From Parcubacteria group bacterium (GTDB taxonomy: Bacteria; Patescibacteriota; Minisyncoccia; UBA6257; JAAZHW01), in contig JAAZHW010000040.1 of the NCBI GenBank assembly GCA_012510515.1, positions 1 to 16,752 on the forward strand: DNA of 16,752 nt. The letters run 5' to 3'. Positions 7,612 through 11,047 of the stretch are shown here, in pieces; the stretch's first letter is position 1, and every line of letters starts with the position of its first letter. The position numbers and the translations under genes were made by a program. Below the pieces are notes generated by a model, which was not told the DNA's origin, searched no databases, and was given only the letters and a program-made list of their open reading frames with translations.

Positions 7612-9051
7612 ATGAACAAACAGGATTTAGTTAAAATTAATGATTTTTTATGGGAAATTCCTCAAAGTTTTAATTCGGCAATGCGAGTGCCGGCGCGAAT
7701 TTATGCTTCAGAAAAAATGTTAGAAGAAGTTTTTCGCGACCATTCAATTAATCAATTAATTAATGTTGCAAGTTTGCCGGGGATAATAAATTATAGTTTA
7801 GCTATGCCTGATATTCATGAAGGTTATGGTTTTCCTATTGGTGGAGTAGCAGCTATTTCAGCTGATAATGGTGTTATTTCTCCCGGCGGAGTTGGTTATG
7901 ATATCAATTGTGGTATGCGAATTTTATTATCTGATATTTCTTCTTTTGATATTGAAGATCTTTTAAATCGTTTAGCGACGGAAATTTCTAAAGTTATTCC
8001 TTCAGGTTTGGGAAAAGGACAGAAAATAAAAATTAGTCAAAAAGATTTAATTAAAATTCTTGAGGGCGGATCTAAAAAATTAATAGAAGATGGTTATGGG
8101 CAAAAAGAAGATTTTGAATATTGCGAATCTTTTGGGTGTTTGGCTAAATCTGATGCTAACCTTGTTTCTTTAAAAGCCAAAAAACGAGGGGAAGATCAAT
8201 TAGGCACTTTGGGTAGTGGTAATCATTTTTTAGAAATCCAAAAGGTAAATAAAATTTTTGATAAAGAATTAGCCGAAAAGATGGGTATTTTTGAAAATCA
8301 GATAGTAATAATGATTCATACTGGATCACGAGGTTTAGGTCATCAAATAGCTACGGATTATATTCAAATTATGATGCGTTCAATGCTAAAATATGATATT
8401 AAATTAGCTGATCGCGAATTAGCTTGCGCGCCTTTTAAAAGCAAAGAAGGACAAGATTATTTTAGCGCAATGAGTGCCGCAGCTAATTTTGCTTGGGCTA
8501 ATCGACAAATGATTACTTATTATATTCGTCAAGTTTGGAAAAAAGTTTTAGGAGAAAATAATAATTTGAAACTTCTTTATGATGTTGCTCACAATATTGC
8601 CAAATTAGAAGAATACGAAATTAATGGGCAAAAAGAAGTTTTAATTATTCATCGTAAAGGAGCAACACGAGCTTTTCCCAAGGGTCATTTAGAAATTCCT
8701 GAAAAATATCGTTTGATTGGACAGCCAGTTCTTATTCCCGGTAGTATGGGTTCTTTTTCTTATATTTTAATTGGCAAGGAAAGCGGTAAAGAAAGCTGGT
8801 ATTCAACTTGTCATGGCGCTGGTCGAAAAATGTCACGGACTTCGGCAACAAAAAATTTATCATCCCAAGAAATTATTGATGATTTAAAAAATAAAAATAT
8901 TTTAATAAAATGTGATAGTTTAAGAGGTTTAGCCGAAGAAGCGCCTCAAGCTTATAAAAATATTGATGAAGTTGTTGAAGTAGTTTGTGAAAGTGGTTTA
9001 TCATCCAAAGTAATTCAACTTAAACCATTGGCCGTTATTAAAGGAGAATAA
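7612..9051 (+). CDS. rtcB: RNA-splicing ligase RtcB
   Basis: GTP- and Mn-dependent ligase that joins RNA 2',3'-cyclic phosphate or 3'-phosphate ends to 5'-hydroxyl ends. At 479 residues it is a normal full-length RtcB. Visible signatures: MPDIHEGYGFPIGGVAA (65-81), GGVGYDINCGMR with metal ligands D97 and C100, GSGNHFLEIQ (H205), HTGSRGLGH (H236), DVAHNIA (H327), and CHGAGRKMSR with H401 as the His that becomes guanylylated. The C-terminal KPLAVIKGE contains the conserved Lys (K477). All key residues are intact, so it should be active. No archease gene is seen nearby. It is the first gene of a unit with smpB, two bases downstream, and then the tmRNA gene, which suggests a role in repairing RNA damaged under translational stress. 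Confidence 0.97.
   Translation: MNKQDLVKINDFLWEIPQSFNSAMRVPARIYASEKMLEEVFRDHSINQLINVASLPGIINYSLAMPDIHEGYGFPIGGVAAISADNGVISPGGVGYDINCGMRILLSDISSFDIEDLLNRLATEISKVIPSGLGKGQKIKISQKDLIKILEGGSKKLIEDGYGQKEDFEYCESFGCLAKSDANLVSLKAKKRGEDQLGTLGSGNHFLEIQKVNKIFDKELAEKMGIFENQIVIMIHTGSRGLGHQIATDYIQIMMRSMLKYDIKLADRELACAPFKSKEGQDYFSAMSAAANFAWANRQMITYYIRQVWKKVLGENNNLKLLYDVAHNIAKLEEYEINGQKEVLIIHRKGATRAFPKGHLEIPEKYRLIGQPVLIPGSMGSFSYILIGKESGKESWYSTCHGAGRKMSRTSATKNLSSQEIIDDLKNKNILIKCDSLRGLAEEAPQAYKNIDEVVEVVCESGLSSKVIQLKPLAVIKGE
9040..9046 (+). promoter_or_regulatory. Strong Shine-Dalgarno site of smpB
   Basis: AAAGGAG lies seven bases before the smpB ATG, inside the last codons of rtcB. It stands out because most other genes in the window lack a recognisable ribosome site. 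Internal operon genes therefore can use Shine-Dalgarno pairing here. Confidence 0.8.
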
Positions 9052-9053
9052 AA

Positions 9054-9500
9054 ATGAAAATTTTAATTAAAAACAGAAAAGCCGAATTTAATTATGAATT
9101 TTTAGAAAAATTTGAAGCTGGTATTCAATTATTGGGATGCGAAGTAAAGTCCGTAAAAAACGGATTGATTTCATTAGATGGCGCCTCGGCCCAATTTTAT
9201 AATGGAGAATTATATTTAATTAATGCTTCAATTCCGCCTTGGCAATTAGCTAATGCGCCAGACAACTATGACTCTAATAGAAGTAGAAAACTACTTCTTC
9301 ATAAAAAAGAATTAAATTATTTAATAGGCAAAACAAAAAGCGAACATTTAATGATTATTCCCACGGCTATTTACTTGAAAAAAAATAAAATTAAAGTAGA
9401 ATTAAAATTAGGCCGAATAAGACGAAAAGTTGATAAAAGAGAAGTAATTAAAAAAAGAGAGATCAGAAAAGAAATTGAAAAAAATATAAAAGCATATTAA
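9054..9500 (+). CDS. smpB: SsrA-binding protein SmpB
   Basis: A 148-residue protein of normal SmpB length. It binds tmRNA and places it in the A site of ribosomes stalled on broken mRNA (trans-translation). Diagnostic stretches are NRKAEFNYEFLEKFEAGI at the start, LGCEVKSVKNGLISLDGASA, and RSRKLLLHKKELNYLIGK in the middle. The Lys/Arg-rich C-terminal tail (RRKVDKREVIKKREIRKEI) corresponds to the part that enters the mRNA channel. It starts two bases after rtcB with a strong ribosome site, and its partner RNA is encoded eight bases after its stop. This tight smpB-ssrA linkage is common in bacteria; linkage to rtcB is less so. Confidence 0.97.
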   Translation: MKILIKNRKAEFNYEFLEKFEAGIQLLGCEVKSVKNGLISLDGASAQFYNGELYLINASIPPWQLANAPDNYDSNRSRKLLLHKKELNYLIGKTKSEHLMIIPTAIYLKKNKIKVELKLGRIRRKVDKREVIKKREIRKEIEKNIKAY

Positions 9501-9503
9501 TAT
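9475..9503 (+). promoter_or_regulatory. Possible promoter of the tmRNA gene
   Basis: TTGAAA (9475-9480) and TAATAT (9498-9503), 17 bases apart, lie inside the end of smpB. The expected start coincides with the G at 9509 that begins the tmRNA acceptor stem. Processing from an rtcB-smpB read-through transcript is an alternative source. Confidence 0.45.
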
Positions 9504-9508
9504 TAAAA

Positions 9509-9856
9509 GGGGATGATAGGCCTCGAAACGAAAAAATATTTTTGAGTCAGATCGAGGAGCCGTTACCTCGTAAATCAACGGGCAATAAAAATTGCCAACT
9601 CAAATAAAAATCTAGCTTTTGCTTTAGCTTAGCTAGCATCCAAATAACCAATGCTCGATAGGTTAGGCGGGTGTCATATTTATCGAGCTTGACTCTTTTT
9701 TTGGTTGTCTTTGACTAAAAGGAGCGACTAAAATCAAAGACAGGGGTTAATAATTTTGCCAATTTTTAATATTAATCCTAACAATAAATTGGCTTTATCT
9801 GGAAAGCTCAAAAATTAATTTTTTCGTTGACGCGGGTTCAATTCCCGCCATCTCCA
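9509..9856 (+). ncRNA. ssrA: Transfer-messenger RNA (tmRNA)
   Basis: GGGGATG (9509-9515) pairs with CATCTCC (9849-9855, one G-U) to form the acceptor stem, with A9856 as discriminator; CCA is not encoded. The T-arm reads GCGGGTTCAATTCCCGC. A long-range P2 helix is visible: 9527-9537 is perfectly complementary to 9818-9828. Pseudoknot PK1 is formed by CGAGG/CCTCG (9553-9557, 9566-9570) and CCGTT/AACGG (9560-9564, 9577-9581). The tag frame starts at GCC 9594 and encodes ANSNKNLAFALA, ending with TAG at 9630-9632. The tag marks stalled products for proteases. It ends in LA rather than the usual LAA. A GCA at 9582 lies in the same frame but directly against PK1, so it is a less likely resume codon. 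Confidence 0.96.
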
Positions 9857-9861
9857 CAACA

Positions 9862-9877
9862 CATGATATATATCATG
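9862..9877. repeat. AT-rich palindrome after tmRNA
   Basis: CATGATATATATCATG is a perfect 16-base palindrome six bases after the tmRNA 3' end. It might help 3' processing or weak termination, but no T-run follows directly. Confidence 0.3.
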
Positions 9878-9937
9878 AAAATAAATGTTTTAAATAAAAT
9901 AAATTTAATAAAGCAGTCGATTATTTTTTAAAAAAAA

Positions 9938-10438
9938 ATTTTAAAAAGACATAATATCAACAATCAAATAAAGGCTAAAGAAGTAAGAGTTATTGATGAA
10001 AGAGGAGAAAATTTAGGGGTGATGCCAATAGAAAAAGCATTAAATTTATCTCAGGAAAAAAATTTAGATTTAGTGGAAATTGTGGCAAAAATTAATCCAC
10101 CAGTAGTAAGAATTTGTGATTATAGCAAACTTTTATATCAACAAGAAAAGGCAGAGCGAAAACAAAGAATAAAAGAGCGAAGTGATGAAATGAAACATAT
10201 TCGTTTAAGCTTTAATATTGGCAAGCACGATATGGAAATAAAAGCCCGTCAGGCAGAAGATTTTTTGAAAGAAGGTTTGAGGGTTCAAATAGAATTAGTA
10301 TTGAAAGGTAGAGAAAAGGGGCACAAAGAATTAGCGGAAAATAAATTAAAAGAATTTTTGACCTTTATTAAAAATCCATATAAAATAGTCCAAGATATTA
10401 AAAACAATCCACGCGGTTTAACGATAATTATTAATTAA
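9938..10438 (+). CDS. infC: Translation initiation factor IF-3, with predicted AUU start
   Basis: IF3 binds the 30S subunit, prevents premature 50S joining and checks start-codon pairing. The frame holds a full IF3: INNQIKAKEVRVIDERGENLG at the N-terminus, NLDLVEIVAKINPPVVRICDYSKLLYQQ, the Lys/Glu linker, and a C-terminal domain with EMKHIRLSFNIGKHD and NPRGLTIIIN. The first ATG or GTG (10022, 10019) lies after the conserved N-terminal block, and no ATG, GTG or TTG exists between it and the upstream stop at 9929. The only candidates that keep the N-domain are ATT 9938, ATC 9956 and ATA 9968. ATT 9938 gives 166 residues, normal for the family, and AUU is the known infC start in E. coli, where it allows autoregulation. 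The gene is one base ahead of rpmI. No Shine-Dalgarno site is visible. Confidence 0.88.
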   Translation: MLKRHNINNQIKAKEVRVIDERGENLGVMPIEKALNLSQEKNLDLVEIVAKINPPVVRICDYSKLLYQQEKAERKQRIKERSDEMKHIRLSFNIGKHDMEIKARQAEDFLKEGLRVQIELVLKGREKGHKELAENKLKEFLTFIKNPYKIVQDIKNNPRGLTIIIN

Positions 10439-10439
10439 T

Positions 10440-10637
10440 ATGCTTAAAACAAAAAAATCGGTGCAAAAAAGAATAAAAACAACTACCAAAGGTAAAAAAC
10501 TTTTACACCGGCCAATTAAACAAAATCATTTTAAATCCAAATTATCTGGACGTAATAATCAAGATAAAAGAAAGTCGAAAATGATTAATAAGGTAGATAA
10601 GAAAGCAATAAAAGCTTTTCTTCCTTACGAAAAATAA
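10440..10637 (+). CDS. rpmI: 50S ribosomal protein L35
   Basis: A 65-residue very basic protein matching L35: KTKKSVQKRIKTTTKGKKLLHRP, then the Ser/Arg/Lys-rich centre, ending KAIKAFLPYEK (the LPY motif is typical). It starts one base after infC and precedes rplT, the conserved infC-rpmI-rplT order. No ribosome-binding site is visible, so translation may be coupled to infC. Confidence 0.95.
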   Translation: MLKTKKSVQKRIKTTTKGKKLLHRPIKQNHFKSKLSGRNNQDKRKSKMINKVDKKAIKAFLPYEK

Positions 10638-10699
10638 AAAATTTTTATAAAGGCATTTGTATTTAAATATTAAATCAATGTCGAATTAATTTTATTAAT

Positions 10700-11047
10700 A
10701 TGGTTAGAGTAAAAAGAGGAGTTGTTGCTCACAAAAAAAGAGAAAAAACTCTTAAAAAAACCAAAGGATTTAAATGGGGTAGAAAATCAAAAGAACGAGC
10801 CGCTAAAGAAGCTCTTCTTCATGCGCAAAGTCGTTCTTTTGTAGGGCGAAAAAATAAAAAGCGAGATTTTCGACAATTATGGCAAGTGAAAATTAAAGCC
10901 GCTGCCAATCAATCAGGATTAAAATATAATGAATTTATTAATTTATTAAAAAAGAATGATATTGCTATTAATCGAAAAATGTTAGCGGAGTTAGCTGAAA
11001 AACAACCTCAAATATTTGAGGCAATCATAAAAGAAGTCAAAAAATAA
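10700..11047 (+). CDS. rplT: 50S ribosomal protein L20
   Basis: A 115-residue basic protein that binds 23S rRNA early in 50S assembly. It begins MVRVKRGVVAHKKREKTLKKTKGFKWGRKS, the rRNA-penetrating N-terminal extension, followed by KRDFRQLWQVKIKAAA and GLKYNEFINLLKKNDIAINRKMLAELA, the diagnostic C-terminal domain. In E. coli and Bacillus, L20 represses this operon by binding its mRNA; the 62-base gap before the gene could hold such a site, but I cannot show one. Confidence 0.96.
   Translation: MVRVKRGVVAHKKREKTLKKTKGFKWGRKSKERAAKEALLHAQSRSFVGRKNKKRDFRQLWQVKIKAAANQSGLKYNEFINLLKKNDIAINRKMLAELAEKQPQIFEAIIKEVKK

Follow-up and report, generated by a model that had tools for sequence, protein, structure and literature searches.

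A likely AUU start of the IF3 gene infC in a Patescibacteria order with 16S rRNA tails lacking CCUCC

Where does translation of infC, the gene for initiation factor IF3, begin if its reading frame contains no standard start codon and the ribosomes of the lineage seem to have no anti-Shine-Dalgarno (anti-SD) sequence? The autoregulation of infC is a textbook case that was worked out on an SD-led message. The locus studied here lies in a window of 16,752 nucleotides, the whole stretch of DNA that was analysed (contig JAAZHW010000040.1 of assembly GCA_012510515.1), and belongs to a Patescibacteria (CPR) genome of 526,731 bases in 95 contigs. We found smpB, the tmRNA gene, infC, rpmI and rplT in one row (9054-11047). 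The tmRNA gene also adjoins infC in the relatives L003, L004, L005, L008, L011 and L012. The features relevant to the question are the following:

9054-9500: smpB, named from its context
9509..9857, plus strand: tmRNA gene (ssrA), directly 5' of infC, identified by RF00023 (143.2 bits) and ARAGORN, with the tag ANSNKNLAFALA
9929..9931, plus strand: in-frame TAA closing the infC frame, two codons before ATT, read in the sequence
9938..9940, plus strand: ATT, the proposed infC start, codon -9 when counted from the residue that follows INN, with no standard start in frame
9938..10438, plus strand: infC, encoding translation initiation factor IF-3; 166 residues and a stop codon when read from the proposed AUU, with TIGR00168 and PDB IF3 matches
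9956..9958, plus strand: ATC, isoleucine of the INN block, the rival non-standard start, present in all three genomes of the family
10019..10024, plus strand: GTG and ATG, the first standard codons in the infC frame according to the ORF list, where gene callers tend to begin
10700..11047, plus strand: rplT (ATG), from the ORF list, the order-wide control gene for start codons

Direct reading bears out the claim of the preliminary description that neither ATG nor GTG nor TTG occurs in the infC frame from the stop at 9929 to GTG 10019. The frame reads TAA(9929) AAA AAA ATT(9938) TTA AAA AGA CAT AAT ATC AAC AAT CAA, with ATT as the third codon after the stop, and terminates at TAA 10436-10438, likewise read directly. 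ATC 9956, which encodes the isoleucine of INN, is a second non-standard start candidate in frame. The ORF list gives infC from GTG 10019 only, as a protein of 139 amino acids. Upstream, ATG 9863 and ATG 9875 are in the infC frame, but they are closed off by TAA 9929. An SD site had been said to be missing as well, and indeed AGGA, GGAG and GAGG are all absent from the 25 bases 5' of ATT 9938. By itself, the absence of standard codons from a single AT-rich stretch is not improbable.

The product of the window's infC is IF3 according to the TIGR00168 equivalog, which scores 139.8 bits from ATT 9938 (cut-off 60), with profile positions 3-165 of 170 covered. From 10019, the match drops to 106.8 bits and to positions 29-165, so that the predicted loss of N-domain residues upon starting there amounts to profile positions 3-28. 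The lead resulting from an ATT start is of normal length, as had been anticipated: in the PDB comparison, residue 3 of the window protein aligns with residue 2 of 5lmn_X, a solved IF3 chain of 171 residues. Comparison with two genomes of the window's family yielded pS 0.37 and pN 0.12 for infC codons 2-27 (G001), and pS 0.64 and pN 0.12 for codons 3-27 (G002). The low pN relative to pS indicates that the N-terminal block is coding, and the block is retained in the order loci examined. Between ATT and ATC, the family encodes K-[RK]-[HFY]-N. The residue in front of the INN isoleucine is R or K, specified by AAR, AGR or CGN, in 106 of the 125 first-round loci that contain the block (123 loci of the order plus L032 and L033). 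This conservation of the residues before ATC 9956 as amino acids favours ATT 9938, which is likely the start codon of infC.

Alignment with close relatives, as the preliminary description had suggested, supported the ATT start. G001 has the same ATT codon and reads AAA ATT TTA AAA AAA TAT AAT ATC AAC AAT, whereas G002 contains no standard codon after its in-frame TAA and has ATA one codon closer to the block. Both genomes carry their own in-frame TAA elsewhere between tmRNA and start, and ATG is absent from the 75 bases before the start codon in either of them. An ATG or GTG at another position in a relative had been named as an observation that would speak against the AUU start. This applies in part: G001 has two TTG upstream of its ATT, so that a TTG start is possible there, and one related protein, P0002, is called at the INN isoleucine. 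The expectation that gene callers misplace this start was confirmed: 11 database proteins, some possibly truncated by contig ends, share at least 70% identity with the query across 83% or more of its length, and in none of them was the start placed at the equivalent of ATT. Three of them (P0001, P0006 and P0011) have the MP of ATG 10022 as their first residues, in P0002 (73% identical) the start coincides with the INN isoleucine, and P0007-P0010 begin at or just before VIDE. P0004 is called at an upstream codon, and P0003 and P0005 extend far upstream, by residues apparently into the tmRNA end. These calls indicate that infC is often mis-called among the database proteins of the window's family.

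To place the locus in its lineage, infC was located in 145 of 150 genomes of the order and in 113 of 116 genomes of a phylum sample, from which the loci were retrieved except for that of G230; all surveyed loci belong to Patescibacteria. The first round comprised 159 loci, reduced to 149 by dropping 10 duplicate sequences, and the final set consisted of 147 order loci representing 26 families and of 112 loci from outside the order, namely L032, L033 and 110 more. A locus was classed as obligate non-standard if no ATG, GTG or TTG occurs anywhere from the in-frame stop to the block; families f12 and f26 (12 loci) were left out of this count because in them the anchor of the alignment falls past the TTG/ATG codons. 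Of the 135 order loci, 63 have an obligate non-standard infC, as do 45 of the 112 loci outside the order, compared to 0 of 131 order rplT starts, and it is this recurrence that goes beyond chance. In the other 72 loci of the order, the open frame offers at least one ATG (17 loci) or else GTG/TTG alone (55 loci).

The candidate start codons of the obligate loci cluster at a fixed distance from the block. ATT, ATC, ATA or CTG occupies codon -8 in 32 and codon -7 in 25 of the 63 obligate order loci, while the two other frames contain 0-5 such codons at these positions. At -9, where the window's ATT sits, the same codon class was found in 13/60 obligate order loci; the 45 obligate loci outside the order have their ATH/CTG peak at -9 (17 loci). 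A pyrimidine stands at -1 of ATH at codons -7 to -9 in 51 of 60 cases at obligate order loci, in contrast to 13 of 27 in-frame ATH farther upstream and 152 of 354 off-frame ATH (123 order loci; the count of -1 bases omits f9, f12 and f26). Outside the order, an SD motif precedes 22 of 56 ATH/CTG codons versus 57 of 409 other codons (odds ratio 4.0, p = 1.6e-5, an inexact value because the loci are related and their independence is overstated), and in L172, L190 and L193 it lies close 5' of ATA, ATA and ATT, respectively. Inside the order, no such SD excess before ATH/CTG was observed (3/112 vs 14/491).

Rule-based picks near the peak at the 135 order loci were ATC (35), ATT (30), ATA (23), TTG (18), CTG (10), GTG (3) and ATG (2), with none at 14 loci. 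Families f6, f15, f18 and f24 each contain a mixture of ATT, ATC and ATA. Family f9 uses one fixed place, occupied by CTG in 8/12, TTG in 3/12 and GTG in 1/12 loci; at the CTG loci (L135, L138, L139, L141, L143, L144, L145 and L150) there is no ATG, GTG or TTG upstream of the block. TTG prevails in f12 (8/10, besides ATG in 2/10) and accounts for 6/13 picks in f22. ATG between codons -4 and -20 was found at 10 of 147 order loci, which is about the off-frame rate (19/294). Such turnover within families, with ATG nearly absent, is what repression of a weak start codon by its own product, IF3, would predict.

As a control, start codons were determined for rplT, which could be located at 235 of 259 loci; none was found in the f9 loci, which thus have no start-codon control. 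Order rplT starts are ATG in 129 of 131 and GTG in two cases that may be valine codons (under a different rule, 131 of 133 were ATG and 2 were left unclassified), and the 104 rplT loci outside the order comprise 96 ATG, 6 GTG, 1 TTG and 1 masked start. The base at -1 of order rplT starts is T in 67% and C in 18%, matching the context of the infC ATH codons. An SD-like motif is present 5' of rplT at 2 of 131 order loci, compared to 26 of 103 others. The positive control, E. coli K-12 infC, was recovered as ATT with GGAGG upstream. We also observed that G is rare at -4 to -12 of order rplT starts; together with the base at -1, this may be the context that marks a start where the anti-SD is lacking. 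The idea of a new SD-like motif ahead of rplT that would match the new 16S tail was dropped, as no clear 4-mer emerged.

The window's own genome matches the 16S rRNA model up to position 1369 of 1533, where the contig apparently ends. Two tails from the window's family, those of G001 (GGATCATTTTTAAAGG) and G003 (GGATCATTCTAAAAGG), both lack CCTCC. The same is true of the tails in 60 genomes of the order, save the second tail of G284; these span 21 families (f1, 3, 4, 6, 7, 9 and 13-27) and were collected in sets of 13, 30 (one of them again G024) and 18 (one cut short). Many 16S 3' ends of the order (L282, L331 and L299-L328) read GGATCAATTAAAC and are similar across several families. The motif GTCGTAACAAGG is present in 154 of 227 order genomes, a number that includes chance matches, since L333 and L347 among 20 fetched matches are not 16S tails (L334, another of the 20, is cut short). 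ACCTCC at the right distance occurs in 1 of 227 order genomes, G284, which has two 16S tails, L298 (G284:C18) and L332 (G284:C17), one with and one without CCTCC; two such unlike tails make assembly contamination likely. A tail pattern requiring GGTANC (0/61) was discarded as invalid because the order mostly reads GGCAC. Throughout the phylum sample, the anti-SD pattern was matched in 71 of 116 genomes. Among other orders of the same class, G225 retains CCTCC, and eroded tails were found in G239 (CACTTCTT), G194 (CACTTAAAC) and G176 (CAATTCCAA). Outside the class, CCTCC is kept in 11 of 12 tails, and G155 has CCTCTT.

Several observations speak against the AUU start. The window's ATT lies off the -7/-8 peak of the order, and the bases at -1 of the start candidates in its family are A, A and G, hence no pyrimidine. 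SD support is lacking within the order, 72 of 135 loci have a standard codon, and 14 of 135 have no start-like pick. In addition, all three genomes of the family retain ATC 9956, with a pyrimidine (T, T and C) at -1 as before most starts of the order. Initiation at this codon, which would turn the INN isoleucine into the first residue of M-N-N-Q-I-K, would also agree with the call of P0002 and with the short N-termini in some families (f9 and f12); it would still be non-standard and follow the same regulatory logic. We nevertheless regard it as unlikely, given that the codons from ATT to ATC behave as coding, that R or K so regularly precedes the isoleucine, and that in solved IF3 structures the INN block is preceded by a short lead, a few residues long. 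GTG 10019 or ATG 10022 are the nearest standard codons and are chosen by gene callers in P0001, P0006 and P0011. The truncated IF3 resulting from such a start is scarcely credible, for it would lack profile positions 3-28, although codons 2-27 are under purifying selection and the block is kept across the order loci examined.

An upstream start at ATG 9863 or 9875 would require TAA 9929 to be read through or to be a sequencing error in its T6A9 run. Both codons are in frame and the stop lies in a homopolymer-rich stretch, but G001 and G002 have their own TAA elsewhere and no ATG within the 75 bases preceding the start, and 63 order loci do without a standard start likewise; we consider this explanation highly improbable. 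A different objection accepts AUU as the start and assumes weak constitutive expression only, without IF3 feedback. Feedback is invisible in the sequence, and the frequent TTG of f12 and f22 fits this assumption, as TTG is standard for IF3 in the accessible part of PMC5472188. On the other hand, the turnover among ATT, ATC, ATA and CTG, with ATG nearly absent from infC and not from rplT, points to selection on the codon class over drift to weakness, and the same source describes such starts as IF3-repressed in E. coli and Streptomyces. Expression without feedback is thus conceivable, albeit doubtful.

We therefore favour, with a probability of roughly 0.7, that infC is translated from AUU 9938 as an IF3 of 166 residues, under presumed feedback without SD pairing. 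AUU 9938 would serve as the start codon of the full protein, and IF3 would discriminate against starts that are not AUG, GUG or UUG. Rising IF3 would consequently lower the translation of its own mRNA, in a loop like that of E. coli; by analogy, autoregulation of the window's infC by IF3 is probable. Since the 16S tail of the order, as seen in sister species, lacks CCUCC, the loop would run without SD pairing. The start would instead be selected by codon-anticodon pairing within a leader rich in A/T, joined for most of the order by the pyrimidine at -1. With somewhat less confidence, we propose for the whole order that it lost the anti-SD yet kept the non-AUG infC start, so that self-control of IF3 would act via codon-anticodon pairing alone. 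AUU, AUC and AUA would then be interchangeable, with CUG in one family, and leader context would replace SD pairing. If this holds true, the IF3 feedback loop is independent of the SD mechanism behind the E. coli case. A weak infC start kept without an anti-SD would also uncouple the weak codon from SD guidance and make IF3 discrimination on codon pairing alone testable.

According to the accessible part of PMC5472188, infC starts at ATT in E. coli and at ATC in Streptomyces and is repressed by IF3 in a feedback loop; IF3 is described there as repressing non-standard starts, with TTG counted as standard. Further infC starts given in the accessible parts of the respective articles are AUU in B. 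subtilis (PMC1805508), AUA with an extended SD in S. aureus (PMC13009471) and ATT in Listeria (PMC13068326), and a survey of genes preferring non-AUG starts (arXiv 2008.10758, cited in the available text of PMC9845219) may cover infC. The window's infC resembles that of E. coli in the gene itself, the AUU codon, the lack of a standard start and the order infC-rpmI-rplT. However, E. coli has GGAGG and an anti-SD, whereas the window has no SD motif ahead of infC and the 16S rRNA of the order has no CCUCC; moreover, feedback was shown in E. coli, as the accessible part of PMC5472188 describes, whereas for the window's infC we infer it. The near-cognate infC start, with a codon that varies by lineage, is shared with B. 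subtilis, Streptomyces, S. aureus and Listeria as they appear in these sources. The present case differs from those four in the Patescibacteria host, the SD-less order and the CTG of one family (8/12). Because infC on AUU, AUC or AUA is known in several phyla, the device itself is not new; new is the apparently anti-SD-less setting of a near-cognate infC start.

Anti-SD-less bacteria have been catalogued before, with 128 taxids, mainly Bacteroidetes, Tenericutes and Carsonella, in the accessible part of Amin et al. 2018 (PMC6107228). The order resembles them in its 16S tails without CCUCC and, judging by rplT, perhaps also in a scarcity of SD motifs before genes. Here such tails span at least 21 families of a single Patescibacteria order, and the accessible text of that article contains no mention of 'parcubacteria'. 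In a literature search of mostly open-access articles, preprints excluded, neither order-wide anti-SD loss nor a non-standard infC start in Patescibacteria was found described, and the same applies to the accessible part of an article on Patescibacteria and SD (PMC10849945). Articles naming both the anti-SD and the candidate phyla radiation likewise report, in their accessible parts, no loss of the anti-SD in CPR.

Additional elements around the infC start were considered. RNA structure at the start is restricted to a weak A/U stem (z -1.5) and is uninformative, and promoter-like matches between 9500 and 10100 numbered 6 vs 2.8 in shuffles, none of them convincing. A GTCGAT element 5' of the start in the window's family was dropped, as base composition alone predicts 4.8 copies for the window, which contains 5. 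The same goes for a mini-ORF upstream of AUU and coupled to it, since the sister genomes show no such ATG within the 75 bases 5' of their starts. Finally, we observed an SD-like sequence, AAAGGAGAATAAAA, before smpB (9040-9054), even though the sister species lack an anti-SD; it is possibly a relic or due to chance.
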